Assembly (NCBI GenBank): GCA_021737225.1
Contig: JAIPEJ010000007.1
Location: forward strand, 1-35,176
Length of the DNA stretch: 35,176 nucleotides
Origin: Desulfobacteraceae bacterium
Lineage (GTDB): Bacteria; Desulfobacterota; Desulfobacteria; Desulfobacterales; Desulfosalsimonadaceae
Direction of reading: 5' to 3'
Shown here in pieces: positions 5,826-35,176 of the stretch (position 1 is its first letter; the number at the start of each line of letters is the position of its first letter). The position numbers and the translations under genes were made by a program. The notes under the pieces are model-generated. The model made no database searches. It saw nothing but the letters and a program-made list of their open reading frames with translations, and was not told the DNA's origin.

Positions 5826-5899
5826 TGGAATCCTCCAGAAATGTTAAACAATATATACCGCAGCAAAACGCAGCTATGCGGTTTTGCGGAACTGCACTT

Positions 5900-6331
5900 C
5901 TATGCAGCTTCAAAAACATAGGTCACTTGCCCCGCGGCGGTTTTATCGGCCTTTGCTTTCATTGCCATGCCCACATGGAGCGCATCCTCCCCGAGCGACG
6001 GGCTTAACCGGCCGAAAACCTTGTATTGCCCGTAATCCACCAGGCCGATGGTATAGGGCAGATCCGCCTGAAAACCGGCCGGGGCATAATGAAGTGTCGA
6101 ATAGGTGACAAGCCTGCCCTCGCCTGTCACCTCGAACCACTCAGGGCTGCCTGAAAGGCACTGGCAGCAGTGGGCGCGGGGAGGAAAAAAATACAATCCG
6201 CAGTGATTGCATTTCGTACCCATCAGCCGCCCGTCTTCAAGGTAATCCACAAAATCATTCACCTGGGTCACGCCGGCAAAGCTGACCGTGCCGAATCGGG
6301 CAAATCGTGTATCGAGTTCTTTTTTCCCCAT
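5900..6331 (-). CDS. Zn-ribbon OB-fold protein (DUF35 type), thiolase partner
   Basis: A 143-residue protein with an N-terminal rubredoxin-like zinc ribbon (C41-x2-C44 and C55-x2-C58) followed by an OB fold (GRLVTYSTLHYAPAGF..., about 72-125). DUF35 proteins pair with SCP2-type thiolases; in the toluene pathway the BbsA/BbsB pair is the known example of such a thiolase complex. Here it directly follows a thiolase gene, 83 bases away. The start at 6331 (MGKKELDTRF) is chosen because AAGGAGG lies 6 bases upstream; an in-frame ATG 20 codons earlier lacks this. The likely role is a CoA-binding or structural partner in thiolytic cleavage during degradation of the ring-opened acid. Confidence 0.88.
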   Translation of the reverse strand: MGKKELDTRFARFGTVSFAGVTQVNDFVDYLEDGRLMGTKCNHCGLYFFPPRAHCCQCLSGSPEWFEVTGEGRLVTYSTLHYAPAGFQADLPYTIGLVDYGQYKVFGRLSPSLGEDALHVGMAMKAKADKTAAGQVTYVFEAA

Positions 6332-6414
6332 TTTGGGCCTCCTTGACAACAAAACTTCCTTAAAAAGCTGGACATTTCCCCGCACCGGCATGAATTTCCT
6401 TCAGGTGCGGGGCA

Positions 6415-7584
6415 TCAATCCAGGCCAAGAATGGTGACGTTTCCATAAAGGCCCACGCCCCCGATATTATGAACCAAGCCGATGTTCGGGTTATCCACCT
6501 GCATCGCCCCGGCCTCGCCTCTGAGCTGAAGGACAATGGTTCGAATCTGGGACCCCCCGGTTGCCCCGATCGGATGCCCCTTGGAAAGCAGGCCGCCGTC
6601 CACATTCACCGGAATTTTGCCATCCTTATAGGTCTGACCGGATCGGATCAGATCCCGACCTTTGCCCGGATCGGCAAAGCCCAGATCTTCGTAGGCCATC
6701 ATTTCAGCAATGGTAAAGCAGTCATGGACTTCGGCCACATCAACATCAGAAGCGCTGATGCCGGCCATGGCATAGGCCTGGCGCGCGGCCTCCCGGCCCA
6801 CGGACAAATGACTCAGATCTTTTCTCCCGGCCATGTTCACGGGCGCAGAAGCCGCGCCAACGCCCTTGATCCAGACCGGCTTCCGGCCAAGCGCCCGTGC
6901 CTTTTCTTCGCTGGCAACAATCACACAGGAGCTGCCATCCGCATTGGCACAGCAGTCCCCGGTGCGAAGGGGGCTTGATACCGGCTGGGCCATTTTGTTT
7001 TCCGGGTCTGAAAACATTTCCGGAGTCACAGCCTTGCGGTAGACCGCCTTTTCATTCATCTGGCCGTAAGTAGATGCCTTGACACGGATTAACGCCAAGT
7101 CCTCCGGAGACGTGCCATAACTGGCCATGTGACTCTGGGCATGCAAAGCGTAATAAGCAGGCATCATGGTGCCAAACGGTGACTCCCACTGAATATCCGC
7201 CCCCCGGGCCATTCGCTCCTGCGATTCTTCAGATGTGAGCTGGCTCATAATCTGAAAACCGGACACCAGCACCACATCATGCAGACCCGAGGCCACAAGG
7301 CTATAGGCGAGCTTGAGACCGGTGCTGCTCGAAGAACACAGCGTTTCCACATAAAACGTGGGCTGGGGATTTAAGCCCAGGTACTCTGAGAGAACTCCCG
7401 CAGGCGATCGCTGCTTATCGTATTCCGGCGCAGAGCAAATCACTGTAGCGTCAATTTCGCCGCTGCTGATTCCCGCATCAGCCATCGCCTCTTTAAAGCC
7501 GTCAAACACAAGTTCGCGAATCGATCCCGGGTACTGACGCACAAACGATGTTTGCCCGACACCGATAATTCCCACTTTTCCCAT
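6415..7584 (-). CDS. Thiolase family protein (SCP2-like acyl-CoA acetyltransferase)
   Basis: A 389-residue thiolase expected to cleave a 3-oxoacyl-CoA with CoA. Catalytic residues are visible: nucleophile C83 in ETLCSSSSTG, HDCF at 287-290 and GHP at 336-338 with the GATGGSQ loop. The C-terminus reads HNIGGVGLYGNVTILG, the SCP2-type form without the second CxG cysteine. Start: GTG at 7593 is possible, but GAGGTGA lies just upstream of ATG at 7584, which begins the canonical MGKVGIIGVGQT, so that start is preferred. It forms a pair with the following DUF35 gene. In this operon 3-oxopimeloyl-CoA to glutaryl-CoA plus acetyl-CoA is the inferred reaction. Confidence 0.92.
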   Translation of the reverse strand: MGKVGIIGVGQTSFVRQYPGSIRELVFDGFKEAMADAGISSGEIDATVICSAPEYDKQRSPAGVLSEYLGLNPQPTFYVETLCSSSSTGLKLAYSLVASGLHDVVLVSGFQIMSQLTSEESQERMARGADIQWESPFGTMMPAYYALHAQSHMASYGTSPEDLALIRVKASTYGQMNEKAVYRKAVTPEMFSDPENKMAQPVSSPLRTGDCCANADGSSCVIVASEEKARALGRKPVWIKGVGAASAPVNMAGRKDLSHLSVGREAARQAYAMAGISASDVDVAEVHDCFTIAEMMAYEDLGFADPGKGRDLIRSGQTYKDGKIPVNVDGGLLSKGHPIGATGGSQIRTIVLQLRGEAGAMQVDNPNIGLVHNIGGVGLYGNVTILGLD

Positions 7585-7627
7585 GACTGTCACCTCTTTA
7601 TCCGGGAAGCCTCAATCCTTTAAGGAT

Positions 7628-8422
7628 TTACTTCCGATACTTGGAAAACTCCGGTTTCCGCTTTTCCATGAAGGCGTTTTTGCCTTCAAGCGACTCGTCT
7701 GTGCCGTAGTACATGCTCAGCCCCCCGACACCCAGGTTGGTAATGCCGGCAACGCCGTCGGTCTCCGCGTGGAAGGCATACTTGAGCATCTTCAGCGCGG
7801 TCGGGCTCTTGTCAAGGAGTTCCCCGCACCATTTGTCCACTTCCTCGTCAAGCTGATCAAAGGGCACCACTGCATTGACCAGTCCCATTTCCAGGGCCTC
7901 CTGCGCCTTGTACAGCCGACAGAAGAACCAGATCTCTTTTGCCTTCTTAAGGCCCACGCAGCGGGCCAGATCCCCGGTGCCGTAACCGGGATCAAAGCTG
8001 CCCACCTTGGGACCGGCCTGGCCCAGCTTTGCGGATTCAGCGGCAATGGACAAGTCGCATACCACCTGGAACACGTGCCCGCCGCCAATGGCATACCCAT
8101 TGACCCTTGCAATCACGGGTTTCGGCAGATTCCGGATCAGGGCCGAAACGCTCTGCCAGCCGACTTCCACCGGCAGGGCAGCCATGGTTCCGGCATATCC
8201 GCCCTTATCCCGGATGGACTGGTCTCCGCCGGTACAGAAAGCCTTTTCCCCGGCACCGGTAAACACCACCACGCCGACGCTGTTATCCACCCAGGCATCG
8301 GTTAATGCCTTGTGGAGTTCCATCAGGGTCAGAGACGTACACGCATTGTATTTTTCAGGCCGGTTGATGGTAACTTTTGCCACTCCGTCTTTTTTCTCAT
8401 AAATGATTTCCTGGAAATCCAT
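7628..8422 (-). CDS. badI: 2-ketocyclohexanecarboxyl-CoA hydrolase-like crotonase (BadI-like)
   Basis: Crotonase-family protein of 264 residues in the MenB/BadI branch. Visible are FCTGGDQS (62-69), NGYAIGGGHV (108-117, oxyanion hole) and GQAGPKVGSFDPGYGT (134-149). BadI from Rhodopseudomonas palustris opens the ring of 2-oxocyclohexanecarboxyl-CoA to pimeloyl-CoA and carries the DPGYGT form, whereas MenB has DGGYGS; here D144 and T149 follow BadI, as does PKPVIARVNGYAIGGG. Menaquinone synthesis (MenB) is the alternative, because GGHV and SFD resemble MenB, but no other men genes are present while a BadH-like gene lies three genes upstream in the same operon. AAAAGGAGG precedes ATG at 8422. 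Confidence 0.82.
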   Translation of the reverse strand: MDFQEIIYEKKDGVAKVTINRPEKYNACTSLTLMELHKALTDAWVDNSVGVVVFTGAGEKAFCTGGDQSIRDKGGYAGTMAALPVEVGWQSVSALIRNLPKPVIARVNGYAIGGGHVFQVVCDLSIAAESAKLGQAGPKVGSFDPGYGTGDLARCVGLKKAKEIWFFCRLYKAQEALEMGLVNAVVPFDQLDEEVDKWCGELLDKSPTALKMLKYAFHAETDGVAGITNLGVGGLSMYYGTDESLEGKNAFMEKRKPEFSKYRK

Positions 8423-8500
8423 TGTTCCCTCCTTTTAAAGATTGTTTTCCAATTTTTTGGGCGCGCCAGAGACGCCCTGTGCCAGCCGGAACAGGCATGG

Positions 8501-9661
8501 CTATTTGTAATTATAGGGCAGATAGGCTCTTCCCATCATTTCCCGCTGCACCACCATTTTGGACACCTGCGGGGTGCCGTCGGCAATTTCAATGGCCAGG
8601 ACATCCCTGAGGCGCTGCTCCAGGGGGTAATCCTTGGTGTAGCCGTAATGACCGTGAAGCCCTATGCAGTCACGAATCGCATTGGTTGAAAACCGCGGGG
8701 CCATCCATTTTACCATGCCGGCCTCCTTGCTGCTGGACTGCCCCTGGTCCTTTAACCACAGGGCCTTGTAACAGAGCAGCCGGACTGCTTCTAGAAGGCT
8801 GAAATGTTCAACTATCGGAAAGGATACGCCTTCGAAGGTCGCCAGGGGCCGCCCGAAGGCTTCGCGCTGCTTGACATGGGCCATGGTTTCCTCAAGGGAG
8901 ACCATGGCCGGGGCAATGGCTTCAAGGCAGAGAAAGATGCGGCTGATGTCAAATCCCTGCATGGCAAGTTTAAAGCCCTTTCCCTCCTCGCCGATCCGAT
9001 AATTCTCGGGAATCTCCACGTTCTGCAAAAAAAGCGATCCCCGGACCACGGCATTGCACCCCATATCCTCATAGGCCTGAGTGGAGACGCCGGGAAGATT
9101 GCAAGGTACGACAAAGCAGGAAACCCCCTTGGCGGTTCTGCCGGGCTCGGTGCGGGCAAAGATAAGCGCCACATCCGCATCCATAATGGCAGTAATACCG
9201 GACTTCTCTCCATTGAGCACGTAGGACGCACCTTTTTTCTCCGCACTGGTCTGAAGCGCGCCGGCATCCGTTCCGGAGTCGGGCTCGGTCAGACAGAAGG
9301 CAGGGATCTGCTCCCCCGCCATAAAGGGCTCGAGAAAGGCTTTCTGAACATCCCGGCCGGCCTGTTCCAGAAGCCCGGCGCACAAGTGACCGGCCACATG
9401 CGTTGACATTGTAATGCTGCAGTCGCCCCGGGAAAGCTCTTCGCACACAAGGCCTTCTGTGACATAGGAATCGCCCCCGCCTCCGATGTCCTCGTTGACG
9501 GAGACACCGAGAAATCCGAGATCGCCCATTTTCCTGACCAGCTCCCGGGGATAGATTTTTTTCCTGTCCCACTCCGTGTAGTGCGGTGCCAGCTCGTCCT
9601 GGGCAAATCGCCGGACTTCCTTTTGAATCATCTTTTGTTGTTTGTTGAATGCAAAATCCAT
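8501..9661 (-). CDS. aliB: Cyclohexanecarboxyl-CoA dehydrogenase-like ACAD (AliB-like), Asp base
   Basis: A 386-residue acyl-CoA dehydrogenase with LTEPDSGTD (124-132) in the FAD/substrate region and a C-terminal GHYGYTKDYPLEQRLRD (337-353). At the place of the usual catalytic Glu (xYEGT) the sequence reads IADGTPQ, so the base is Asp361. Acyl-CoA dehydrogenases acting on ring-carboxyl CoA esters in anaerobes are known for unusual catalytic aspartates. The 1,4-eliminating cyclohexene enzyme has Asp near residue 91, where this protein has Gly, so a 1,2-dehydrogenation of cyclohexanecarboxyl-CoA is the better guess. Its position between the acyl-CoA ligase and the BadI-like gene supports this. 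AAAGGA precedes ATG at 9661. Confidence 0.82.
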   Translation of the reverse strand: MDFAFNKQQKMIQKEVRRFAQDELAPHYTEWDRKKIYPRELVRKMGDLGFLGVSVNEDIGGGGDSYVTEGLVCEELSRGDCSITMSTHVAGHLCAGLLEQAGRDVQKAFLEPFMAGEQIPAFCLTEPDSGTDAGALQTSAEKKGASYVLNGEKSGITAIMDADVALIFARTEPGRTAKGVSCFVVPCNLPGVSTQAYEDMGCNAVVRGSLFLQNVEIPENYRIGEEGKGFKLAMQGFDISRIFLCLEAIAPAMVSLEETMAHVKQREAFGRPLATFEGVSFPIVEHFSLLEAVRLLCYKALWLKDQGQSSSKEAGMVKWMAPRFSTNAIRDCIGLHGHYGYTKDYPLEQRLRDVLAIEIADGTPQVSKMVVQREMMGRAYLPYNYK

Positions 9662-9725
9662 ATATGGGGTCCTTTAAATGTGCCTGTGTATCGGCAGGCC
9701 GTGAATGGTTGCGGCAAAATTGGAA

Positions 9726-11393
9726 TTATACGCTTTCCAGGTTGCCTTTTTCATAGTCCTCGACGCCCCAGTTTCTGACCTTGTAATGGATCAGTTTGCC
9801 TGTGGCCGTCATGGGAAGTTCCTCCACGAACTTATACAGCCGGGGCCGCTTATACTTGGACAGCATGGGATGGTTCTGGCAATGGGTATCCAGCTCCTTG
9901 GCCGTTAGCGAAGCATCGCTTTTGATCACATAAGCAGTAACAATCTCGCCCCATTTCTTGTCCGGAATTCCGGCCACCACGCAGCTGGATACCGCGGGGT
10001 GCTCATTTAACACCTCTTCAACCTGAACCGGGTGCACGTTTTCACCGCCGGAGATGATCATGTCATCCTTTCGGCCGACAATGGTCACAAACTCCTGCTC
10101 ATTCCAGATGGCCAGATCCCCGATGTAGAGCCAGCCTTTATAGAACTTCTTTGCGGCCTCCTCGGGTTTGTTGACATAAGCATACGCGCATTTGGCCGGC
10201 GACTTGACGATCACCTCGCCCACGGTTTCGTTGTCCTTGGGCACGGTCTCATCCGGTTCGGCAAGCCGGTCGGGGTGGAGTTCCACAACGGCCATATCAT
10301 CATCCGTGCAGGAACGGCCGGCAGATCCCGCCATTTCAGGCAGATCAAACGGCCTTAAAAACGTATTCCAGAAGGCCTCGGATGAACCGTAACCGTTAAA
10401 AATGTTTTCCGTAAGCACCTTGTGGCATTCAATACACAGGTTCTTTTCCAGGGGCGCACCCATGGTGACAATCCCTTTCAACGAACTGATATCCCTGGGG
10501 TTTTTCTCCTGCTCTTCCTTGAGCAGTTTCAGGGTGAAGGGCACTCCCGTAAGATAGGTGAGCTGGTATTTCTCCACGGAGTCCAGTACCGTGGCCGCAT
10601 CAAAATTCCTTAGAATGACGCATTGCCCGCCGATGTACAGGGTCGGGTTGGGTCCGCCGGAATACAGGCCGCCGCGGTGGAACCAGGGCGTCATGTTCAT
10701 TGTTTTGTCCTGCGGCGAGAGCGGATAATGCATGATCACGTCATGGGCACTCAGGATATCATTGATGTTGTTTAGCGGCACGCCCTTGGGCATGCCCGTG
10801 GTGCCCGAAGTATAAAGCCGGGTCACCTCGTCGTAGACATGGCTGGGCCGATCGATGCCAGGGTCCTCTGCCTGAAAACGGCCGACATAATCACTGTATG
10901 AAACAGAGCCCTCAAAAGGCACCTCCTTGCCGCTAATATCCACCATGACCACCTTTTCCGGCTTATGCGAGGCCATCTCCAAAGCCTGCCGGGCCACTTC
11001 TTTGAACTCCGCATCATAAAAATAGACCCTGGGCTTGCTGTCATCGAGAATATAGGCGGTCTCGCCCGCAGAAAGCCGGAAATTTATCGGGCAGCTGATG
11101 GCACCGAGCTTGTGCGGCGCCAGGTAGAGAAACAAAAACTCCGCGCAGTTAAGCAGCTGATGCATGACCACGTCGTCTTTTCCCACCCTGCTGTCCATCA
11201 GCGCCCGGGCCAGCTGGTTGACCTCAGCATTGAGCTCCGGATAGCTCCAGGTCTTTTCCCGGATCGGACAGGTCAGCGCATCTCTTTCGGAAAACCGGTG
11301 CACGTTGCGCATGAATCCGGCAATGTAGGTAAAGGTGTTTTCAAAGGTGTCAATAAACATCTCTGAATCATAGGTGTTGCTGTGGTGTTTCAT
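9726..11393 (-). CDS. AMP-forming acyl-CoA ligase, probably for an alicyclic or aromatic acid
   Basis: Activates a carboxylic acid to its CoA ester via an acyl-adenylate. The 555-residue ANL-family protein has the P-loop-like TRLYTSGTTGMPKG (191-204), NGYGSSEA (333-340), YIGDL with D426, the hinge GRKDDMI (440-446), SGGENVHP (448-455) and catalytic Lys533 in TATGK. No signal peptide or membrane segment is seen, so it is cytosolic. As the only ligase in the operon it should provide the entry step; cyclohexanecarboxylate (AliA role) is inferred from the adjacent AliB-, BadH- and BadI-like genes, and benzoate or another acid cannot be excluded from the sequence. GGAGA precedes ATG at 11393. Confidence 0.9.
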   Translation of the reverse strand: MKHHSNTYDSEMFIDTFENTFTYIAGFMRNVHRFSERDALTCPIREKTWSYPELNAEVNQLARALMDSRVGKDDVVMHQLLNCAEFLFLYLAPHKLGAISCPINFRLSAGETAYILDDSKPRVYFYDAEFKEVARQALEMASHKPEKVVMVDISGKEVPFEGSVSYSDYVGRFQAEDPGIDRPSHVYDEVTRLYTSGTTGMPKGVPLNNINDILSAHDVIMHYPLSPQDKTMNMTPWFHRGGLYSGGPNPTLYIGGQCVILRNFDAATVLDSVEKYQLTYLTGVPFTLKLLKEEQEKNPRDISSLKGIVTMGAPLEKNLCIECHKVLTENIFNGYGSSEAFWNTFLRPFDLPEMAGSAGRSCTDDDMAVVELHPDRLAEPDETVPKDNETVGEVIVKSPAKCAYAYVNKPEEAAKKFYKGWLYIGDLAIWNEQEFVTIVGRKDDMIISGGENVHPVQVEEVLNEHPAVSSCVVAGIPDKKWGEIVTAYVIKSDASLTAKELDTHCQNHPMLSKYKRPRLYKFVEELPMTATGKLIHYKVRNWGVEDYEKGNLESV

Positions 11394-11435
11394 CTCGTCT
11401 CCTTTTTCAACCGGCTTTTTTTGCTTTCCGGCATG

Positions 11436-12203
11436 CTAGCTGCTCATGGTGAGGCCGCCGCTCACACTGAGCGTCTGGCCGGTGATGAAATCAGCCTCTT
11501 TGGAAGCGAAAAAGACCACCGCAGCTGCAATTTCCTCGGGCGTGCCGGTGCGTCTGAGCGGAATGACCTTATCCATCTTGGACAGAACCTTCTGCGCAAA
11601 CTCGCTTTCCGCCTGCATCTGCTGGGTAAGCGGTGTATCCGTGGGCCCCGGGCATATGACATTGACCGTTATCTGGTTTCTGGCCACCTCCCGGGCAAGC
11701 GACTTGCTGAAGGATATGACAGCACCCTTGGCCCCGGCATAGACGGCCTCGCCGCTGCTGCCCACCCGGGCGGCATCCGAGCTGATATTGATGATCTTGC
11801 CGCCGTTTTTGTCGATCATGTCGTGGATGACCGCATACACACAATTGAGCACGCCCTTATAATTGATATCGATCACCTTGTCCCAGAAATCCGGAGTTGT
11901 ATCGACAAAGGGAATCATGCGGTCCCAGCCCGCGTTGTTGACCAGAACATCAATGCCCCCGAATGCTTCTTTTACCCTGGCGACCGACTGCTTGACCTTA
12001 TCCGGATCCGTGATATCGGTTTGTACCGCCATTACCTTGTGGTTCTGCTGGCTTAGTTCATCGGCTGTCTGAGCCGCGGCGGTTTCGTCAATATCAGCAA
12101 TGGCCACTTTGGCCCCCTGCCCGGCCAGGGCGGTTGAAATGGCTTTTCCAATGCCCTGGGCCCCGCCGGTTACCATTATGGTTTTGTCTTTGAGTTCAAA
12201 CAT
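11436..12203 (-). CDS. badH: 2-hydroxycyclohexanecarboxyl-CoA dehydrogenase-like SDR (BadH-like)
   Basis: NAD-dependent short-chain dehydrogenase of 255 residues. The cofactor motif TGGAQGIG is at 12-19, NNAG at 89-92, and the catalytic triad is S142, Y155, K159. Segments NNAGWD, ISSDAARVGSSGEAVYAGAKG and VICPGPTDTPL closely resemble R. palustris BadH, which oxidises 2-hydroxycyclohexanecarboxyl-CoA to the 2-oxo compound, the substrate of BadI. FabG is the general alternative, but the SDAARVGSSGEAVYA block and the operon argue against it. The start at 12203 (MFELKDKT) is chosen for its AAGGAGG 5 bases upstream, over an in-frame ATG five codons earlier that lies inside that site. The iclR gene ends 24 bases upstream. 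Confidence 0.86.
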   Translation of the reverse strand: MFELKDKTIMVTGGAQGIGKAISTALAGQGAKVAIADIDETAAAQTADELSQQNHKVMAVQTDITDPDKVKQSVARVKEAFGGIDVLVNNAGWDRMIPFVDTTPDFWDKVIDINYKGVLNCVYAVIHDMIDKNGGKIINISSDAARVGSSGEAVYAGAKGAVISFSKSLAREVARNQITVNVICPGPTDTPLTQQMQAESEFAQKVLSKMDKVIPLRRTGTPEEIAAAVVFFASKEADFITGQTLSVSGGLTMSS

Positions 12204-12227
12204 TTGCGCCTCCTTCATAAAAATTTG

Positions 12228-26012: not shown

Positions 26013-27191
26013 ATGCAAAAGGTTCAAACCGGACTGGAAAACCTGATCCATAACCCGCCGGCCGAGCTCGGGAAAAAACGCCTGGCACTGCTGTGCAACC
26101 CCGCTTCCGTGGACAGCCGTTTTCGCCATGCCCGGGATCTCATTGACCGCCGGTTTCCGGGGGCGCTGAAAACCCTGTTTTCCCCCCAGCACGGCTTTTT
26201 TGCCGAAAAACAGGACAACATGGTCGAGTCCGATGACCTGACCGATGGCCGGCTGTCCGTCCCGGCATTCAGCCTGTACGGCGCCACCCGCACCCCCACC
26301 GAGACCATGCTGGACCAATTCGATGTGCTCATCGTGGACCTGCAGGACGTGGGCACCCGGGTTTATACCTTTTTTACCACCCTGTCATATTGCATGGAGG
26401 CCGCCGCAAAAACGGGGAAAAGCGTGCTTATCGCAGACCGGCCCAATCCCGTGGGCGGGGTGCAGGTGGCGGGAAATTGCCTGAACCCGGAATACGCCTC
26501 TTTTGTGGGCCGCTATCCCATTCCCATGCGTCACGGGCTGACCATCGGCGAGTATGCCAGCTATATAAACCAAGCCTTCGACATCGGGTGCGATCTGTCG
26601 GTGATCCCCATGAAAGGCTGGAAACGGGGGATGTACTTTGACGCTACGGGCCTTGCATGGATCGCTCCCTCACCCAATCTCCCCACACCCGCATCGGTAC
26701 AGGTCTATCCGGGCCAGGTTATCTGGGAGGAGACCAACATCTCCGAAGGCCGCGGCACCGCCCTGCCGTTTGAACTCTTCGGCGCGCCGTTTCTGGAAAC
26801 CGATGCCGTGCGGCAGGCCCTGGGCGGCACGTCAATCTCCGGGGCCGTGCTCCGGCCGGCCGTGTTTGAACCCACCTCGGGCAAATGGGCGCAAACCCCG
26901 TGCAGCGGATTTCAAATCCATGTCACGGACCGGTATCAATTCGAGCCTTACACGACAAGCCTGCAACTGCTTTCCGCGATCCTGGCGCGCCACCCGGACG
27001 AACTCGCATGGAAGGCGCCGCCTTATGAATACGAGTGGGAAAAGCTTCCCTTTGACCTGATTACCGGTGATCCGGAAATTCGCCGGCAACTGCATGCAGG
27101 GGCGGACGTGGCGGAAATGGCCCGCGCCTGGCAGCCGGAAGTGCAGAAATACCTACGGGAGGCCCGGCGGTTTTACCTTTATGAAGAATAA
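26013..27191 (+). CDS. namZ: DUF1343 / NamZ-type exo-beta-N-acetylmuramidase
   Basis: Family protein of 392 residues; characterised members (NamZ, GH171) release MurNAc from the non-reducing end of peptidoglycan fragments. Conserved blocks are CNPASVD (28-34), LFSPQHGFFAEKQDNM (55-70), LIVDLQDVGTRVYTF (106-120), LIADRPNP (139-146), APSPNLPTP (218-226) and EETNISEGRGT (239-249). No signal peptide is seen with ATG at 26013, unlike secreted members, which suggests that it acts in the cytoplasm on imported muropeptides, unless the true start differs. A MurU-AmgK fusion that would use free MurNAc lies 4 kb downstream on the same strand. Confidence 0.9.
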   Translation: MQKVQTGLENLIHNPPAELGKKRLALLCNPASVDSRFRHARDLIDRRFPGALKTLFSPQHGFFAEKQDNMVESDDLTDGRLSVPAFSLYGATRTPTETMLDQFDVLIVDLQDVGTRVYTFFTTLSYCMEAAAKTGKSVLIADRPNPVGGVQVAGNCLNPEYASFVGRYPIPMRHGLTIGEYASYINQAFDIGCDLSVIPMKGWKRGMYFDATGLAWIAPSPNLPTPASVQVYPGQVIWEETNISEGRGTALPFELFGAPFLETDAVRQALGGTSISGAVLRPAVFEPTSGKWAQTPCSGFQIHVTDRYQFEPYTTSLQLLSAILARHPDELAWKAPPYEYEWEKLPFDLITGDPEIRRQLHAGADVAEMARAWQPEVQKYLREARRFYLYEE

Positions 27192-27224
27192 AAAAAAAGC
27201 GATTGCATAGCAAGAAAGGCTGTT

Positions 27225-27917
27225 ATGAGTCAAAACGAAGTGCCCGGCTGGAAACGGATGCGGTTTAAGGGCAACAAGGTTTGGATGGAAGTCGATGATT
27301 CGGGACACCCGGTTGTCGCCGACAAAAAGGTACGGATCAAATACCAGCTCGATCAGTCCCATGAATACCGGGTGAGCCCGAAAAGCCTCACCGAGCTGGA
27401 CCAGCAGCCGCAGGAAAACCTGGGGAAAAAGCCCCGGACCGGATCGGCGAAGCCGGCCGGAAAGACCCGGGGATCCGATACCCGAACGGAAAAAACGACC
27501 ACCGGCCGGGATGCGGTGGTCATCTATACCGACGGCGCCGCATCAGGCAACCCCGGCCCTTCCGGCATCGGCGCAGTACTGCGCTACGGCGGGAAGACAA
27601 AGGAGATCTCGAAATACATCGGGGTCGCCACCAACAATGTCGCCGAACTCGAGGCGGTGCGGGCCGCGCTGTCCGCGTTAAAAAGAAAGGATTTGCCGGT
27701 CTGGCTCTACACCGACAGCAGTTATGTCCACGGCCTGCTCGTGCTGGGCTGGCAGGCGAAAAAAAATCCGGAGCTGGTCGAAAAAGTCCGAAAGCTGGTA
27801 AGGCAGTTCAAAGACATTGAAATTGTCAAGGTCCGGGGGCATGACGGGGTTGCCGACAATGAGCAGGCCGATTTTCTGGCCACCTCGGCGATCAAAAACC
27901 AGGCGGACAGAACATAA
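27225..27917 (+). CDS. rnhA: Ribonuclease HI with an extra N-terminal domain
   Basis: Degrades RNA in RNA-DNA hybrids. The catalytic domain occupies residues 96-230 with the four acidic residues D103 (YTDGAASGNPGPSG), E141 (NVAELEAV), D164 (YTDSSYV) and D216 (NEQADFLA), and GHDG at 205-208 in the flexible loop. Before it comes a domain of about 50 residues (WKRMRFKGNKVWMEVDDSG..., VRIKYQ) and a basic linker rich in Lys, Pro and Thr (60-95). The N-terminal piece is not the classical hybrid-binding domain in any way I recognise. The gene follows namZ by 33 bases and ends against a terminator that serves the opposite strand. Confidence 0.93.
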   Translation: MSQNEVPGWKRMRFKGNKVWMEVDDSGHPVVADKKVRIKYQLDQSHEYRVSPKSLTELDQQPQENLGKKPRTGSAKPAGKTRGSDTRTEKTTTGRDAVVIYTDGAASGNPGPSGIGAVLRYGGKTKEISKYIGVATNNVAELEAVRAALSALKRKDLPVWLYTDSSYVHGLLVLGWQAKKNPELVEKVRKLVRQFKDIEIVKVRGHDGVADNEQADFLATSAIKNQADRT

Positions 27918-27948
27918 AAAACCCCGCAAACGCAAGGCGCGCGGGGCT
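27916..27948 (-). terminator. Intrinsic terminator of the small minus-strand gene
   Basis: On the minus strand CCCCGC (27941-27946 complement) pairs with GCGGGG (27922-27927 complement), followed directly by TTTTTT (complement of 27916-27921). It lies about 40 bases after the stop at 27986 and overlaps the rnhA stop codon by two bases. In the plus direction the T tract is missing, so it is a weaker terminator for rnhA. Confidence 0.65.
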
Positions 27949-27985
27949 TAATCGCAAAAGGCGCTTATTTATCAGCAAAAGGCGA

Positions 27986-28279
27986 TTACTTTTCCGTTTT
28001 GAGCTGCTCGATCTCTTTTTTCAGTTCTTCATTTTCCTTGCGGTACTTTTCCGCGTCGCTTTCCGCCGGTGTGGAATCGGCAACACCCGGCTCCACGCCG
28101 CTTTCTTTCTGCCAGGTATCCTTGAGCTCGTCAAACCCCAGGTAAAGGGCCAGACAGCCGCCGAGAAGCAGCATCACTGGAATGGCACCAGCCAGAAGCG
28201 TCAGAAAGTCGTCAAACCAGACTGCCAAACCGATCACACCAATCACGGCCGCGACCGCACCGCCAATTAAAGTCTTCAT
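27986..28279 (-). CDS. Small membrane protein with C-terminal coiled coil, unknown function
   Basis: A 97-residue protein with two hydrophobic segments (about 4-21 and 27-48, the second GAIPVMLLLGGCLALYLGF) and a charged C-terminal stretch ending in a short coiled coil (EKYRKENEELKKEIEQLKTEK, from residue 77). I do not recognise a family. It is a single-gene unit against the flanking plus-strand genes, with a very strong ribosome-binding site (AAAGGAGGAAG) before ATG at 28279 and its own downstream terminator, which argues that it is real and expressed. Confidence 0.7.
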   Translation of the reverse strand: MKTLIGGAVAAVIGVIGLAVWFDDFLTLLAGAIPVMLLLGGCLALYLGFDELKDTWQKESGVEPGVADSTPAESDAEKYRKENEELKKEIEQLKTEK

Positions 28280-28585
28280 AACCCTACTTCCTCCTTTTTT
28301 TTAAAAAATTCATGACCGCATCACAATATCGATTCGCCCGATTGGCAGGACATTGCAGGGAAACATCAATCCCTCTACCACAGACGATTCCGCGAAGCAA
28401 GCAAAAACCCCGCAGCACCCCCCGGTGCCTGATACCGCATGGCCTGCCTGCTGTCCCGACTCCGGTTTCGCGCTTGAAAACCCGTTCATAACCTGTTATT
28501 TATGCGAAATCACCAAAACTTTTTTACGGTCTAAAATATGGTTCAGCCTGCTTTGCTAATACAAATATAAAACGGTAAAATCATC
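28280..28585. other. Divergent intergenic region (306 bp), no gene seen
   Basis: It separates the minus-strand small membrane protein from plsB and must hold promoters in both directions. A GCACC-CCCC-GGTGC hairpin is near 28415. The second half is AT-rich. A plus ORF from a TTG at 28353 is proline- and cysteine-rich without a ribosome-binding site and is not accepted. Confidence 0.5.
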
Positions 28586-31225
28586 ATGCCACTGATTCCA
28601 GGCAGAATCCGAAAAAACAGGAAACGCCCGAGCGCCGCGGACACCGGCAAATCCGAAGAGCAGCCCTTTTTCTGCTATCTTCCGCCACAGACGGGATTGC
28701 TGGCCGGACTGATCCGCACCGTACTGTTCATGCGCCCGAAAATCGATCCGGACCTGCAAAAAACCTTAAAAGAACTCAAAAGCGCCGGCGTCATTGTTTT
28801 TGTCAACAAGTACCGAAGCCAGTTCGATTATTTCTTTTACCACCTCCGATTCCGGCACCAGGGCCTGCCCCACCCGGACCTGGGATTTGATTACCGGACG
28901 TTTTTCTGGCAGCCCTCAAAAAGACTGGTCAAAGGATTTTATTTTTATCTTAAACACCTCCTGAAACATTTTCAACTGCCGGATCCATATCAAAGGCACT
29001 ATTACCGCGATATGCTGCTGGAAGGCCATTGCGGGCTGGTCTCGCTCATTGAGGAAAAGGGGGTTTACAACCGGTTGGTGGAGTCAAGAACCGACCCCCT
29101 CGAATACCTGATTGACATGCAAAAATACATTGATGTGCCGGTTTACCTGGTCCCGCAGATCATTCTCTACGACACGGCCCCGCAATCGGCCCGGCTGTCC
29201 CTTCTGGACATCATCTTCGGCACCCGGGAAAAACCCGGGCGGCTGCGCAGGCTCTTCATGTTAATGACCCGGCCCGGCAAAATCCTGGTCGAGTCCCCCG
29301 AACCGGTGTGTATCCGGGACTACCTGGAAAGCCGGGATCTGGGCGATATGGACCAGGCCCAGCAGGCCATGTCTCTGCGCCGCTACCTTGTGGACCAGAT
29401 CAACCGGCACCGGCAGTCCATTACCGGCCCCGTTCTAAAATCCCGCGTTGAAATCATGCAGGAAGTGCTCACCAGCCGGGAAACGCAGCAAGCGATCACC
29501 GAATACGCCCGGGAAGAGGATGTTTCCATCCACCTGGCCCAGAAGGAGGCCGGCAAACTTCTCGACGAAATTGCAGCCAATTACAACCTGAAGGTCATCC
29601 GGATATTTGACATTTCGCTGCGCTGGATCCTCCGGGCCATGTTTGACGGGATGGTGGTGGACTACGAGGGGTTAAACCGTATCCGGCAGGCCTCCAAAAA
29701 AGGCCCCTTGCTGCTGGTGCCCTGCCATAAGAGCCATCTGGATTACCTGATCATCTCCTTTGTCTTTTTCCACAACAACCTGCCCTGCCCGCACATTGCC
29801 GCGGGCAGAAACCTTTCTTTCTGGCCGATCGGCCCGCTTTTCCGCGGGGGCGGCGCCTTTTTCATCCGCCGCACCTTCAAGGGCGATCCCCTGTATCCCA
29901 AGGTGTTTTCCGCCTACCTGCACAAGATCCTGGAAGAGGGTTTTCACGTGGAGTTTTTTCCGGAAGGCGGCAGAAGCCGCACCGGCAAGCTGCTGACACC
30001 CAAGATCGGCTTTTTGTCCCTCGTGGTGGATGCCTTTATGAAAAGCAACTGGGAAGACATGCAGTTTGTCCCCATTTACATCGGCTATGACCGGGTACTG
30101 GAGGAAAAGGCATACGTCCACGAGATGGAAGGCGGGAAAAAGCGCCCGGAAAATCTCGGCGGCGTGCTCAGGGCGCGCAAATTTTTAAAGAAAAAATACG
30201 GCAAGATCTATATCAACTTCCATGAACCCTTTTCCATGAGGGAGCACTTCGGAGCGGATCAAACCGATTATCCCCGGCTTGCGCGCGAAAATCAAAAAGA
30301 ACAGCTGTATGATTTCGGCAAAAAAATTATCAGCGCCATTAACAGCGAATCCGTGGTCACGCCGCACGGGGTGGTATCTGCGGCCATCCTCAACTGCTCG
30401 CAAAAACGCATCTATTACAGACAATTGATCGCCAATGCGGAAACATACATACATTACCTGCTTTACCAGAACATCAAGCTGACCGATACCCTGTACATGG
30501 ACCGCCACGGCGCCTTTGACAGCGTGCTTGACACGCTGGTATCAAACAAGGTGCTTGAAAAGGCCGCCTCGAGCAGCCCGAACGATGCCCCGGCAAATCC
30601 CATTTTCAAGATCCAGGAAAACCGCCGTCCCAACCTGGAATACTACAAGAACAACGGGGTGATCCACTTTATCCCGGCGGCATACACGGCGCTTTCCGTG
30701 CTGGCCCTGGATTCCTTTCAGTTTACAGTGGAAAGCACCTATCCCCATTACGAATTTTTGAAGGAATTCTTTTCCGCGGAATTCATTTTCGATCCGGGCG
30801 ATTCCACGGAAAACGCGGTGGCAGACAACCTGAACGCCTTTATCGACGATGCCATCCTCACCCCGCATCCCGACATGGCAGACACCTATAACCTGACCTC
30901 TGCGGGTTACCGGAAGCTCAACCTGTTTGCCGGGTTTTTAACCCCTTATTTCGAATCCTACTGGGTGGTGCTCAACTTCTACAGGCGATATGTCCGAAAA
31001 TCCATACTGGATTTCAAAGATTACACCCGAAAGATCCAGGGTATGGGAAACCGCATGTACAGGCGCAATGAAATCCTCCGCAAGGAAGCCCTGTCCAGGA
31101 TGAACTATAAAAACGCCGTGAACTGCTTTGTGGAAAACGGGCTGACCAACCCGGAAAAGGACAAGGAACTGCTGGAAACCTATGTGGAAAACGTGCAGTT
31201 TTACCGGCGCTATCTGCCGACGTAA
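28586..31225 (+). CDS. plsB: Glycerol-3-phosphate acyltransferase, PlsB type
   Basis: Membrane-associated enzyme of the first step of phospholipid synthesis, sn-glycerol-3-phosphate to 1-acyl-G3P, 879 residues. Acyltransferase motifs are clear: HKSHLD with H381 and D386 (HX4D), GGGAFFIRRTFKG, VEFFPEGGRSRTGK (about 454-467) and VPIYIGYDRVLE. The N-terminal ~350 residues and the C-terminal ~300 residues correspond to the flanking PlsB domains; length is close to the proteobacterial norm (about 800). The ribosome-binding site before ATG at 28586 is weak. The stop TAA at 31223-31225 is followed at once by the ATG of the next gene, so the two are probably coupled. Confidence 0.93.
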   Translation: MPLIPGRIRKNRKRPSAADTGKSEEQPFFCYLPPQTGLLAGLIRTVLFMRPKIDPDLQKTLKELKSAGVIVFVNKYRSQFDYFFYHLRFRHQGLPHPDLGFDYRTFFWQPSKRLVKGFYFYLKHLLKHFQLPDPYQRHYYRDMLLEGHCGLVSLIEEKGVYNRLVESRTDPLEYLIDMQKYIDVPVYLVPQIILYDTAPQSARLSLLDIIFGTREKPGRLRRLFMLMTRPGKILVESPEPVCIRDYLESRDLGDMDQAQQAMSLRRYLVDQINRHRQSITGPVLKSRVEIMQEVLTSRETQQAITEYAREEDVSIHLAQKEAGKLLDEIAANYNLKVIRIFDISLRWILRAMFDGMVVDYEGLNRIRQASKKGPLLLVPCHKSHLDYLIISFVFFHNNLPCPHIAAGRNLSFWPIGPLFRGGGAFFIRRTFKGDPLYPKVFSAYLHKILEEGFHVEFFPEGGRSRTGKLLTPKIGFLSLVVDAFMKSNWEDMQFVPIYIGYDRVLEEKAYVHEMEGGKKRPENLGGVLRARKFLKKKYGKIYINFHEPFSMREHFGADQTDYPRLARENQKEQLYDFGKKIISAINSESVVTPHGVVSAAILNCSQKRIYYRQLIANAETYIHYLLYQNIKLTDTLYMDRHGAFDSVLDTLVSNKVLEKAASSSPNDAPANPIFKIQENRRPNLEYYKNNGVIHFIPAAYTALSVLALDSFQFTVESTYPHYEFLKEFFSAEFIFDPGDSTENAVADNLNAFIDDAILTPHPDMADTYNLTSAGYRKLNLFAGFLTPYFESYWVVLNFYRRYVRKSILDFKDYTRKIQGMGNRMYRRNEILRKEALSRMNYKNAVNCFVENGLTNPEKDKELLETYVENVQFYRRYLPT

Positions 31226-32953
31226 ATGCGCTCCCGATCCATGCCGCCTGTCTCGATAAAAGCGCTGGTACTGGCCGCGGGCCTGGGCGCCCGCCTGCGG
31301 CCCTATTCGCAGAAGGTGCCCAAGCCGCTTTTTCCGGTCGCCGGCCGGCCGATCATCGACATCATTATCCGCCGGCTCATTGACGCCGGGATATCGGCCA
31401 TCGGGGTCAACACCCATCATCTGCACGAGCAGATGGAGGCCTTTCTTTTATCCCGCAGTTATGCGGTGCCCGTGGTCCACCGGTATGAGCCGCAACTGCT
31501 GGGCACCGGCGGGGCCATTCAAAATTTTGCGGATTTCCTGGGAAAAGACCGTCCCTTTGTTGTCATCAACAGCGACATCCTTACCGACATCTCCATTTCC
31601 GGAATAATCTCGCAGCACATGGCCGATGGCTGTGCGGCCACCCTGGCTGTGGTTAACCGCCCGGAATTCAACTCGGTCTGCATTGCACCGAACGAAAGAA
31701 TCACCGGCTTTGCCGGCAATCCGGCCGGAAATGAAAAGTGCCTGACCTTTACCGGCATCCAGGTAATCGATCCGATGATTTACGACTACCTGCCGGCTGC
31801 CGGCTTTGCCGGCAGCATCGGGGCTTTTGACGCCATGATTCAAGACGGCCTGGAAATCCGGGCATATGAAGCCTCGAAACGATACTGGAACGATCTGGGC
31901 ACCCCGGAAAGATACCGGCAGGCGGTAATTGATACCATCGGTCCCGAGGCGTTTGCCCGGGCCTTCGGCCGGGCGCCGGAATCGGAAATCGACTGTGTAC
32001 CACTGGCAGGGGACGGATCGGATCGCAAATGGCTGCGGACCCGCAGCCGCGGGCAAAGCCTTGTGATCGCGGACCACGGCATCCAGACCCAAGCGCATAC
32101 AACGGAATTTGATGCTTTCGTGGCCATCGGGAGACACCTGCATCAAAAGGGCCTGGCAGTGCCGGCGATTTATATGCATGACCGGTTTTCCGGGCTGGTC
32201 TTCCTCGATGATCTCGGAGATACCCTGCTGCAGTCGGTTGTTCTGTCAGAACCCGATCCGGCTGCGATTGAAAGCCATTACCGCGCGGTGATCAACAGCC
32301 TCCTGACCATGAGCACGGCCGGGGCCGAAGGGTTTGACCCGGCCTGGGGCTATCAGGAGCCGGTCTACAGCCGGCAGACCATTATCGAAAAAGAGGGACT
32401 GTACTTTATCCGGGCGTTTCTGGAAAAATGGCTCGGCATGGAAAACGTGTCCGAGTCAAAGCTGGTCCCGGAATTTGCCCGGCTGGCAGATGTGATTGAA
32501 ACCCACGGCGCGGAGGGGTTCATGCACCGGGACATGCAGTCGCGCAACATCATGGTGACAGCGGCCGGCTATTCTTTCATTGATTTTCAGGGCGCCCGCC
32601 TGGGGCCGATCCAGTATGACCTGGCCTCGCTGATCACGGATCCGTACGTGGACCTGGGCCCGCAAACGCGCCAAAACCTGCTTTCATATGCCGCAGACCG
32701 GCTGGCCCCGGAAATCGGGGTCGACCGGGCCGCCTTCTACAAAGGGTACCATTATTGCGCCATTGCCAGGAACCTGCAGGCCCTGGGCGCTTTCGGCCAT
32801 CTGTCCGGGGCCGGGCAGAAACCGCAATTTGCCGCCTACATGAAGCCGGCCTTAAACAGTCTTTCTGCTCTGCTGGCATCGGCCCAATCCCCCGCCCTGC
32901 CCTGGCTGGCCGAAACCGTGGCCCGGGCGCAAAGCCGAATGGCCTGTCTTTGA
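31226..32953 (+). CDS. MurU-AmgK-type fusion: nucleotidyltransferase plus sugar kinase
   Basis: A single 575-residue chain with two enzymes. Residues about 11-245 form a sugar-1-phosphate nucleotidyltransferase (LAAGLGARLRPYSQKVPKPL at 16-35, LLGTGGAI, VINSDILTD), like MurU/HddC. Residues about 255-575 form an aminoglycoside-phosphotransferase-fold kinase with the catalytic HRDMQSRN (H434-D436) and the metal-binding D453 in IDFQGARLGPIQYDLASLI, like AmgK. In Pseudomonas separate AmgK and MurU turn MurNAc into MurNAc-1-P and then UDP-MurNAc, bypassing fosfomycin-sensitive de novo synthesis. The order here is MurU first, AmgK second, with no stop or frameshift between. Starts directly after the plsB stop (TAAATG). 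Other sugars remain possible. Confidence 0.87.
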   Translation: MRSRSMPPVSIKALVLAAGLGARLRPYSQKVPKPLFPVAGRPIIDIIIRRLIDAGISAIGVNTHHLHEQMEAFLLSRSYAVPVVHRYEPQLLGTGGAIQNFADFLGKDRPFVVINSDILTDISISGIISQHMADGCAATLAVVNRPEFNSVCIAPNERITGFAGNPAGNEKCLTFTGIQVIDPMIYDYLPAAGFAGSIGAFDAMIQDGLEIRAYEASKRYWNDLGTPERYRQAVIDTIGPEAFARAFGRAPESEIDCVPLAGDGSDRKWLRTRSRGQSLVIADHGIQTQAHTTEFDAFVAIGRHLHQKGLAVPAIYMHDRFSGLVFLDDLGDTLLQSVVLSEPDPAAIESHYRAVINSLLTMSTAGAEGFDPAWGYQEPVYSRQTIIEKEGLYFIRAFLEKWLGMENVSESKLVPEFARLADVIETHGAEGFMHRDMQSRNIMVTAAGYSFIDFQGARLGPIQYDLASLITDPYVDLGPQTRQNLLSYAADRLAPEIGVDRAAFYKGYHYCAIARNLQALGAFGHLSGAGQKPQFAAYMKPALNSLSALLASAQSPALPWLAETVARAQSRMACL

Positions 32954-33148
32954 GTCCCGTGAATTTTAAAACCTTCCCAGAGGCAGAAGGGGAAAACTGT
33001 CGAGGGGCCTGGCCAGGGTCTGCCGGCGGGGACACCAAAACAAATACCACCTTGACTTGCAGCCGGTTTTATCCCAGAAATAAAGGATGCAGGATAAAAC
33101 AGACCTGCAAAAAAACCGTCAACCCATCAGGCAAGGACAAAAGATACC

Positions 33149-33979
33149 ATGGCACCCATACAGATCATGATCAACGGCCTGCCGGGCAACGTGGCCACCG
33201 CCCTGGCCGAACACGCCATCGCGGACAGCCGCTTTACACTGATTGAATATTCCCTTACCGGCCCGGAAATCACCGAAACCGAGCATCGCGTCAAGGACCG
33301 GGCCATCCGGCTGGTGGGCCCGCAAACGCGGCAGGAGGTCATCCGGGCGCTAAAGCAGACCGCGGACGAACTCGTGGCCATCGATTTTACCCACCCCAGT
33401 GCCGTAAATGACAACGCCGAGTTCTACTGCGAAAATCGCATCCCGTTTGTCATGGGCACCACCGGCGGCAATCGGGACCGGCTCTATGAAACCATCCAAA
33501 ACGCGGATATCTGCGCGGTAATCGCACCCAACATGGCCAAGCAGATCGTGGGGTTCCAGGCCATGATGGAATATGCCGCGGAAAACTTTCCCGGCCTGTT
33601 TGCCGGCTACGAACTGACCATCGAGGAAAGCCACCAGCAGCAAAAGGCCGATACCAGCGGCACGGCCAAGGCCATGGTAAATTATTTTAACAAGCTGGGC
33701 GCGAATTTTAAAAAAGAAGACATCATCCAGGTCCGGGACCCGGAAGAACAGAAAAACCGCCTGGGCGTGCCCGAACAATACCTGTCCGGCCACGGATGGC
33801 ACACCTATACCCTGGTCTCCCCGGATAACACCGCGGTCTTCCGGTTTACCCACAACATCAACGGCCGGGACATCTATGCCCAGGGGACATTTGACGCGGT
33901 AAACTTCCTGGCCCAAAAAATGGATCAGGGCGCGCGCGGACAGGTTTACTCCATGATCGACGTGCTCAGGGGTGCATAG
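33149..33979 (+). CDS. dapB: 4-hydroxy-tetrahydrodipicolinate reductase, plant-type DapB
   Basis: Reduces 4-hydroxy-tetrahydrodipicolinate with NAD(P)H on the way to diaminopimelate and lysine, 276 residues. The N-terminal Rossmann part starts IQIMINGLPGNVATALAE, where most DapB have GxxGRMG; VMGTTGG (101-107) and APNMAKQIVGFQ (126-137) follow. The substrate and catalytic motif ESHQQQKADTSGTAKA (160-175) matches the plant-type ESHQ..K.DTSGTA rather than the usual EHHH..K.DAPSGTA. Ribosome-binding site AAGGA before ATG at 33149. A 195-base gap with no recognised feature precedes it, and the solute-binding protein gene starts 4 bases after its stop. Confidence 0.9.
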   Translation: MAPIQIMINGLPGNVATALAEHAIADSRFTLIEYSLTGPEITETEHRVKDRAIRLVGPQTRQEVIRALKQTADELVAIDFTHPSAVNDNAEFYCENRIPFVMGTTGGNRDRLYETIQNADICAVIAPNMAKQIVGFQAMMEYAAENFPGLFAGYELTIEESHQQQKADTSGTAKAMVNYFNKLGANFKKEDIIQVRDPEEQKNRLGVPEQYLSGHGWHTYTLVSPDNTAVFRFTHNINGRDIYAQGTFDAVNFLAQKMDQGARGQVYSMIDVLRGA

Positions 33980-33983
33980 CTCC

Positions 33984-35176
33984 ATGAAAAAATCATCCCT
34001 CTTCCCCGGGGCATCCGCCCTGGTGCTGCTGGCGGCTGCGCTCTTGCTGCCGGCATTGGTAGGCATCTGCGCGGCCGAAGAGTTCCCGAAAAGCAGCTGG
34101 GCGGACCGCCCGGATCCCCTGGCCAGCCCGCAGGCGCAAAAAGGCGGGGAAATCGCCGTTTTCGGCGGGCAGTACCCCAAGAGCATGAACTACTACCTGG
34201 ACAACAACATGCTTTCTGCCGAAATCTTCGGCACCATGTTTGAAAGCCTGCTGTCCATCCACCCGATCACCCTGGCATACCAGCCGGCCATTGCAGACAG
34301 GTGGGAAATATCCGAAGACAAGAAAACCTTTACCTTTCACATTGACAAGGACGCGCACTGGAGCGACGGCAGGCCGATTACCGCCGGCGACGTGGCCTGG
34401 ACCTACCAGGCGATCATGGACCCCAAACACATGACCGGCCCGCACAAGGTCAGCCTGGAGCGATTCAAGCCGCCCGAAGTGATTGACAGACGCACCATCC
34501 GCTTTACCGCAAAATCGGTACACTGGAAAAACCTGCTGACCCTGGGCGGGCTGAACATCATGGCAAAGCACGCCTATGCGGAAAAGGATTTCAACAAAAT
34601 CAATTTTTCATTCCCGGTGGTCTCGGGTCCCTACCGGCCCGGAGAAATGCAGGAAGGCCGGCTGATCCGGATGAAGCGGCGGGAAAACTGGTGGCAGGGC
34701 GATTTTGCCAGAAACCGCAACAAGTACAACTTTGACACCATTACCTTCAAGTTCTACGCGGAGCGGGAAAACGCGTTTGAAGCCTTTAAAAAGGGCAAAA
34801 TCGATTTGTTCCCGGTCTATACCTCCCGGATCTGGGTCAAGGAAACCAACGGGGATGCGTTTTTCAAAAACCACATTCTCCGGCGGAAAATCCACAACCA
34901 CAACCCGGTGGGGTTCCAGGGCTTTGCCATGAACATGCGGCGCGCACCGTTTGACGACGTGCGGGTGAGAAAGGCAATGGCCCTGCTACTGGACCGGCAG
35001 GAGATGAACCGCACCCTGATGTACAACCAGTACTTTCTGCACCGCTCCTATTATGAGGACCTCTACACCAAGGACAATCCCTGCCCCAACCCCTTGATTG
35101 AAATGGACAAGGAGGCCGCGCGCAAACTGCTGGATGCCGCCGGCTGGCGGGTCAACCCCGAAACCGGGTTCCGGGA
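33984..35176 (+). CDS. ABC transporter solute-binding protein, family 5 (partial, C-terminus outside window)
   Basis: Periplasmic peptide/oligopeptide-type binding protein; 397 codons are visible of an expected 600 or so. It begins with a signal peptide (MKKSSLFPGASALVLLAAALL..., cleavage probably near ICAAEE, residue 30-33). The SBP_bac_5 domain shows YQPAIADRWEISEDKKTFTFHI, WSDGRPITAGDVAWTYQAI, FDDVRVRKAMALLLDRQ and AARKLLDAAGW. The N-terminus SSWADRPDPLASPQAQKGGEI resembles the YejA branch, whose Agrobacterium relative YepA delivers muropeptides. Permease and ATPase genes presumably follow outside the window. Peptide or muropeptide as ligand is inference. Confidence 0.9.
   Translation, partial: MKKSSLFPGASALVLLAAALLLPALVGICAAEEFPKSSWADRPDPLASPQAQKGGEIAVFGGQYPKSMNYYLDNNMLSAEIFGTMFESLLSIHPITLAYQPAIADRWEISEDKKTFTFHIDKDAHWSDGRPITAGDVAWTYQAIMDPKHMTGPHKVSLERFKPPEVIDRRTIRFTAKSVHWKNLLTLGGLNIMAKHAYAEKDFNKINFSFPVVSGPYRPGEMQEGRLIRMKRRENWWQGDFARNRNKYNFDTITFKFYAERENAFEAFKKGKIDLFPVYTSRIWVKETNGDAFFKNHILRRKIHNHNPVGFQGFAMNMRRAPFDDVRVRKAMALLLDRQEMNRTLMYNQYFLHRSYYEDLYTKDNPCPNPLIEMDKEAARKLLDAAGWRVNPETGFR

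Follow-up and report, generated by a model that had tools for sequence, protein, structure and literature searches.

A stand-alone protein of the NamZ (exo-beta-N-acetylmuramidase) family, encoded together with a MurU-AmgK-like fusion on a contig of a Desulfobacteraceae bacterium, probably provides the step that releases N-acetylmuramic acid (MurNAc) in a form of anabolic peptidoglycan recycling that does without AnmK. The stretch of DNA analyzed, here called the window, makes up an entire contig (G000:C160, 35,176 bases) of a 2.67-Mb genome that is assembled in 208 contigs and is 76.9% complete. In the proposed pathway, muropeptides would be imported via AmpG where it is present, or else by an ATP-binding cassette (ABC) peptide importer, and would be trimmed by NagZ and AmpD. 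NamZ would then cleave the bond at C1 of MurNAc in the cytosol, yielding free MurNAc. Phosphorylation of this sugar at C1 would fall to the AmgK part of the fusion and synthesis of uridine diphosphate (UDP)-MurNAc, which bypasses MurA and MurB, to the MurU part, with Mpl and LdcA processing the peptide. The observations are gene presence, the lack of a signal peptide, synteny, co-occurrence and operon-like gene runs, and it is from these that we infer the enzymatic steps, the substrate and the importer.

Proteins of the NamZ family release MurNAc exo-lytically from non-reducing ends. The two family domains, NamZ_N (268.2 bits, E 4.8e-80; cut-off 26.9) and NamZ_C (163.7 bits, E 7.1e-48; cut-off 25), span the whole protein of the window, as in NamZ of Bacillus subtilis and NamZ1 and NamZ2 of Tannerella forsythia, and the match to PDB 4k05 (E 4.4e-67) marks it as homologous to solved Bacteroides-type structures. 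Residues D109, D112, R116, D142, R143, H174, E180, R205, E239, E245 and R247 are invariant across 16 aligned stand-alone NamZ sequences. The proteins begin directly at a TGLE-like motif. With the start nearest the homologous position, none of 114 distinct homologues, a set that may include fusion-type copies with an internal start (L112, L113), has a hydrophobic 12-residue stretch at the N-terminus; such a stretch appears in 7 of the 114 only when upstream in-frame codons are counted. Judged by its N-terminus, the protein looks cytosolic, whereas the characterized NamZ of B. subtilis and NamZ1 and NamZ2 of T. forsythia are reportedly secreted. It also differs from these in being linked to AmgK/MurU, Mpl and LdcA rather than to MurNAc breakdown.

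The genes namZ, rnhA, plsB, the fusion gene, dapB and the gene of a solute-binding protein (SBP) all lie on the plus strand of the window (Table 1). Their spacing is 33 bases between namZ and rnhA, 0 bases between plsB and the fusion gene and 195 bases between the latter and dapB, which overlaps the SBP gene by 8 bases. The first-pass annotation had placed the genes that it named on one strand; all were located there, with matching domains and with synteny kept in relatives. Among 60 genomes of the order, the window's own included (hereafter the relatives), 53 have a fusion match at E<=2.6e-90, with fragments at contig ends in two more; NamZ exceeds its cut-off in 53, and the SBP is present at >=60% identity in 38. 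In 20 relatives with long stretches, hand-picked among fusion carriers, plsB is on the stretch of the fusion in every case and immediately 5' of it in 19, namZ is upstream in 18, dapB is downstream in 18 and the SBP gene in 16. This arrangement exceeds chance. The best 80 of 586 confirmed NamZ loci all bear Desulfobacterales-like, deltaproteobacterial or "Proteobacteria" names, and in these the fusion lies 3' of namZ in 30 of the 50 that extend far enough (6.5 kb), and dapB in 26 of 45. The namZ-plsB-fusion-dapB block also occurs in the cultured relatives Desulfobacter vibrioformis DSM 8776 and D. latus (loci L217 and L225). A small MamI-like gene holds the same place ahead of plsB in all 20 relatives and in 42 of the 66 named loci with room.

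The second line of evidence is co-occurrence across the phylum, for which searches with the fusion as query, for NamZ and for AnmK were compared in a sample of 247 genomes. When MurU/AmgK is scored as present at a fusion-query match of E<=1e-38, a cut-off set after the table had been inspected, NamZ is found in 98 of the 105 genomes with such a strong match versus 46 of the 142 others, and AnmK in 0/105 versus 19/142. By family (226 of the 247 genomes are labelled, in 87 families), NamZ occurs in 42/44 families with MurU/AmgK versus 16/43 without, and AnmK in 0/44 versus 9/43. At each of eight cut-offs between 1e-20 and 1e-45, the NamZ trend keeps its direction (at 1e-30, 119/142 vs 25/105). 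Fisher p-values for NamZ against MurU/AmgK (5e-24 by genome, 3e-9 by family) take no account of kinship and, since both genomes and families are related, overstate the evidence.

Treating NamZ and AnmK as simple alternatives was rejected: their opposition by genome is weak, with 7 of the 19 AnmK genomes carrying NamZ (p 0.056). In six of these seven, NamZ is found in open reading frames (ORFs) of 682-816 residues, and the only one of those long-ORF genomes that was checked, G187 (L113), encodes a beta-lactamase-NamZ fusion, as does G221 (L112). If fusion-type genomes are set apart (a class of 10 defined by ORF length, with the long-ORF genomes G077 and G140 remaining classed as stand-alone), stand-alone NamZ and AnmK co-occur in 1 of the 62 families having either. 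The fused proteins themselves (L112:1039-3486 and L113:1417-3459, both on the minus strand) join a serine beta-lactamase domain to a different type of NamZ, and the long NamZ ORFs of further genomes suggest more such fusions.

The third line of evidence comes from gene runs outside the order. Of the 133 NamZ genomes there, at least 12 place a MurU or AmgK match on the contig of NamZ, no more than about 12 kb away. In G061 (L157), a nagZ-like gene, namZ, murU and amgK follow one another with ORF gaps of 13, 1 and 0 bases; the GH3 protein of this run is below the NagZ cut-off (167.1 vs 207). The order in G082 (L160) is PBP4, an AmpD-NagZ fusion, namZ, a GHMP kinase, mpl (over its cut-off), and MurU-like, AmgK-like and LdcA-like genes, the AmpD-NagZ fusion being a single protein (L160:4011-5609) with each half over its NCBIfam cut-off. 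G142 and G166 (L243, L245) share the series namZ, mpl, a GHL10 protein gene, ldcA, nagZ and amgK; G114 (L244) is alike, but no ldcA was seen there and its amgK comes from the genome-wide search. In G256, murU and amgK come after namZ. Unrelated genes separate the NamZ and MurU/AmgK matches, 2 to 12 kb apart, in G136, G277, G297 and G226, and the stretches of G208 and G247, in which long overlapping frames obscured the genes, gave no run reading. The occurrence of several gene orders with recycling genes indicates that stand-alone NamZ accompanies cytosolic recycling enzymes.

Two proteins of these runs deserve separate mention. The GHMP kinase between namZ and mpl in G082 (L160:7319-8950) is galactokinase-like and is a candidate non-orthologous kinase for recycled sugar. 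The GHL10 proteins of the namZ-mpl-nagZ-amgK runs (L243:9655-11502, L244:9713-11518 and L245:7910-9760, the latter two with a rotamase domain) belong to what is presumably the Pfam family of DigH. DigH itself is reported to be a glycan hydrolase and not a lytic transglycosylase (PMC12288456).

The remaining recycling genes were sought in the relatives by profile search. AnmK is over its cut-off in none of the 60, with five weak local matches below it; that it was missed through a poor model was rejected, the model passing its cut-off in 19 of the 247 phylum genomes and in 5 of 14 controls. MurQ is likewise over its cut-off in 0/60 (5/14 controls exceed it), and breakdown of MurNAc via MurQ was rejected on this count, the matches in 35 of the 60 being weak and beneath the cut-off. 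NagZ of the window's own genome exceeds its cut-off (215.7 vs 207), with GH3 proteins in 49/60 relatives, and AmpG does so in 42/60. The first-pass annotation had regarded the combination of a signal-less NamZ with AmgK and MurU as not usual in characterized pathways; the lack of a signal peptide is seen throughout the homologues, and the judgment gains weight because AnmK, the AmgK/MurU feeder of the Pseudomonas route, is over its cut-off in none of the relatives. Its link between NamZ and AmgK/MurU recycling holds for co-occurrence and runs, mainly outside the window; the enzymatic steps themselves are predicted.

The fusion holds a PF00483 nucleotidyltransferase domain and a PF01636 APH-type kinase domain. 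The best NCBIfam model of its first half is MurU (116.4 bits, below the cut-off of 250) and that of its second half is AmgK (88.6 bits, below the cut-off of 500). Against PDB, the first domain gives a near tie between 4y7t (82.8 bits), a nucleotidyl transferase that we take to be MurU of Pseudomonas putida, and 8x7s (82.3 bits), a UTP-glucose-1-phosphate uridylyltransferase. The genomic company of the fusion and its homologues is namZ in the window and, in L157, L160, L243 and L245, nagZ, mpl or ldcA as well.

Several observations weigh against the proposed pathway. Both profile scores of the fusion are far under the NCBIfam equivalog cut-offs, and the nucleotidyltransferase of G082 scores 151.4 as mannose-1-phosphate guanylyltransferase versus 114.8 as MurU. 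The co-occurrence cut-off is post hoc, and looser ones admit AnmK (4/142 at 1e-30, 11/201 at 1e-20). Seven of the 105 MurU/AmgK genomes are without NamZ, 46 of the 142 genomes without a strong match carry it, and G119 carries AnmK together with a NamZ of stand-alone size. Searches for AmpG came up empty in the incomplete genome of the window and in four of eight same-genus genomes (G002, G006, G007 and G008, the last 99% complete); it is present in G001, G003, G004 and G005. Selection of the runs was by eye, out of roughly 12 close pairs in the 133 NamZ genomes outside the order. Within the order of the window, the recycling genes are intermixed with rnhA, plsB and dapB; moreover, the fusion is absent behind namZ in 20 of the 50 named loci with room, and the SBP gene follows namZ in only 7 of 43.

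As to what NamZ would act on, imported oligosaccharides with a non-reducing MurNAc are a likelier substrate than 1,6-anhydroMurNAc, because this is the published activity of the family. The alternative that survives best, to which we would give not quite an even chance, is that in the cytosol NamZ and NagZ take turns as exo-glycosidases, acting on glycan fragments from outside that are longer or carry a reducing end, and that anhydroMurNAc ends are not reused. It fits the known activity of NamZ, and the GHL10 proteins in the runs of G142, G114 and G166, from a family that we associate with a glycan hydrolase, would fit as well. A broad ABC importer would let such fragments in; the YejBEF-YepA system is reported to import N-acetylglucosamine (GlcNAc)-MurNAc species that are not taken by Escherichia coli AmpG (PMC9790009). 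The presence of AmpG in most of the relatives, however, suggests anhydro-disaccharides as the main cargo.

It is possible, although in our opinion rather unlikely, that NamZ directly hydrolyzes 1,6-anhydroMurNAc, the anhydro ring of which is produced by lytic transglycosylases, to MurNAc after the action of NagZ and AmpD, one ATP-free cytosolic step thus replacing AnmK and MupP. We know of no NamZ that opens the intramolecular 1,6-anhydro bond, and the missing step could instead be supplied by a kinase not orthologous to AnmK, the GHMP kinase of G082 for example. Nevertheless, NamZ stands in the place expected of AnmK, beside nagZ, murU and amgK in G061 and within the longer runs of G082, G142 and G166, and the near exclusion of stand-alone NamZ and AnmK by family points the same way. 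AnmK is missing over cut-off from all relatives and from all 105 strong MurU/AmgK genomes, yet AmpG, which in E. coli is reported to be specific for anhydro-muropeptides (PMC7670621), occurs in 42/60 relatives. T. forsythia has two NamZ. It is reported to possess AmgK, MurU and AmpG without a predicted AnmK and to grow on GlcNAc-anhMurNAc, but its growth on anhMurNAc is restricted (PMC7670621). A NamZ acting as anhydroMurNAc hydrolase may likewise explain the use of anhydro-muropeptides by T. forsythia without AnmK.

That NamZ serves another glycoside or undergoes non-classical export, its association with AmgK/MurU being old synteny, is improbable. The inclusion of rnhA, plsB and dapB in the block of the order would agree with this, as would the NamZ genomes that have no strong MurU/AmgK match. 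The differing arrangements with recycling genes in families f31, f52 and f70, however, argue against a single frozen gene order, and co-occurrence persists at the level of families (42/44 vs 16/43). Similarly improbable is an activated sugar other than UDP-MurNAc as the product of the fusion, one destined for lipopolysaccharide or capsule: the scores under the curated cut-offs and the near tie in PDB would allow it, but MurU and AmgK are the best NCBIfam models of the two halves, and the homologues adjoin nagZ, namZ, mpl and ldcA.

Within the window, import is represented by the SBP. Since the window is a whole contig, the SBP gene ends with it, and genes beyond are unreadable here. A full-length homologue from G008 matches 5icq (MbnE; 169.5 bits), 4ony, 7z8e and YejA (143.7 bits) in PDB about equally, and these near-equal matches make "YejA/YepA-like", the name that the protein had first been given, correct as a label at superfamily level. 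The accompanying suggestion that the SBP feeds YejBEF fared unevenly. No match to YejB, YejE or YejF lies beside the SBP gene on the stretches of the 16 relatives that have it behind dapB, two of which (L033, L040) offer little or limited room behind it, and an in-place yejBEF operon that includes the SBP was rejected for this reason; in G008 the genes that follow, read by eye, are alaS and recA on the opposite strand. A YejB-like permease (E<=1.8e-44) is nevertheless encoded in 50/60 relatives; the incomplete genome of the window yielded none. Seven of the ten yej stretches fetched (G008, G047, G018, G052, G058, G057 and G019) hold yejB, a yejE of 530 residues and two ATPase genes without an SBP gene, and all seven are from genomes carrying the dapB-type SBP. 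In the other three (G045, G059 and G044), the SBP gene is inside the yej run, and the genomes are without the dapB-type SBP. What remains of the suggestion is this separate, SBP-less yejBE-ATPase operon, found in 7/7 examined. The pattern suggests that the dapB-type SBP partners a distant yejBE-ATPase operon, as YepA is reported to do in Agrobacterium tumefaciens (PMC9790009). The 8-base overlap with dapB hints at peptides containing diaminopimelate as the predicted ligand.

The YejBEF-YepA system of A. tumefaciens (PMC9790009) resembles the present one in that the gene of a YejA/YepA-family SBP is separate from the yejBE operon; that AmpG was not found in the window's clade may be a further likeness. 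It differs in that the SBP described here is about as far from MbnE as from YejA and the rest of the YejA-type structures. YepA is reported only from Alphaproteobacteria (PMC9790009). The operon itself is also of a different build: at L147, L149-L153 and L156 it encodes a YejE-like permease of 530 residues and two separate ATPases, not one YejF.

Among known systems, the proposed pathway is closest to the Pseudomonas-type AnmK-MupP-AmgK-MurU recycling in having NagZ, AmgK-like and MurU-like proteins, AmpG in most relatives and no MurQ over cut-off. It is unlike that route in lacking AnmK over cut-off in the relatives, in having an apparently cytosolic NamZ instead, in the fusion of AmgK with MurU and in the lack of an AmpG match in the genome of the window. 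The MurNAc salvage of T. forsythia is similar in its AmgK, MurU, NamZ proteins and AmpG and in that no AnmK is predicted. T. forsythia differs as a MurNAc auxotroph without MurA/MurB and with MurK/MurQ, and its NamZ proteins are said to be exported. Further reports describe AnmK as conserved in the Pseudomonas-type route (PMC5371407), recycling via AnmK, MupP, AmgK and MurU in A. tumefaciens (PMC9790009), the MurU pathway of Caulobacter together with a mutant in its anmK (PMC13046382) and another recycling route in mycobacteria (PMC13041923). In the open-licence PMC literature, we found no survey of recycling in Desulfobacterota, no signal-less or cytosolic NamZ and no NamZ-AmgK pathway. Judged from its genes, NamZ-AmgK/MurU recycling would be a variation on a known pathway. 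Its interest is that the recovery of anhydroMurNAc in AmgK/MurU bacteria without AnmK is a published puzzle: the authors of the T. forsythia work leave the AnmK-less strategy open (PMC7670621). Across the phylum, a NamZ without signal peptide is paired with AmgK/MurU, which offers a candidate enzyme for this puzzle. If true, UDP-MurNAc would have a third supply route, which might bear on fosfomycin tolerance, and energy-poor anaerobes might have an ATP-free recycling step.

Table 1. Genes of the namZ-SBP block in the window.
Feature	Position	Strand	Matches and scores
namZ, stand-alone NamZ (exo-beta-N-acetylmuramidase family), 392 residues, without signal peptide	26013..27191	+	Pfam NamZ_N + NamZ_C; PDB 4k05
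rnhA, RNase HI domain with N-terminal extension; neighbour without known recycling role	27225..27917	+	Pfam RNase_H 99.7 bits
Small MamI-like membrane protein, 97 residues; conserved neighbour	27986..28279	-	NCBIfam MamI 31.5 bits, below cut-off 80
plsB, glycerol-3-phosphate acyltransferase, directly 5' of fusion	28586..31225	+	Pfam GPAT_C 246.7 bits; NCBIfam PlsB 435.9, below cut-off 610
MurU-AmgK-like fusion: nucleotidyltransferase (residues ~11-239) and anomeric sugar kinase (~250-568)	31226..32953	+	NTP_transferase + APH
dapB, plant-type dihydrodipicolinate reductase (diaminopimelate synthesis)	33149..33979	+	TIGR02130 337.7 bits vs cut-off 294.55
YejA/YepA/MbnE-type solute-binding protein, truncated at contig end	33972..35176	+	SBP_bac_5 200.4 bits

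Two further features of the window should be noted. The dapB product exceeds the cut-off of the plant-type model, whereas the usual bacterial DapB model gives 68.9 vs a cut-off of 122. Upstream, on the minus strand (955-12218), lie genes resembling those of BadH, BadI/MenB and cyclohexanecarboxyl-CoA dehydrogenase, together with a glutaryl-CoA dehydrogenase over its cut-off; these genes probably serve the anaerobic degradation of ring compounds.

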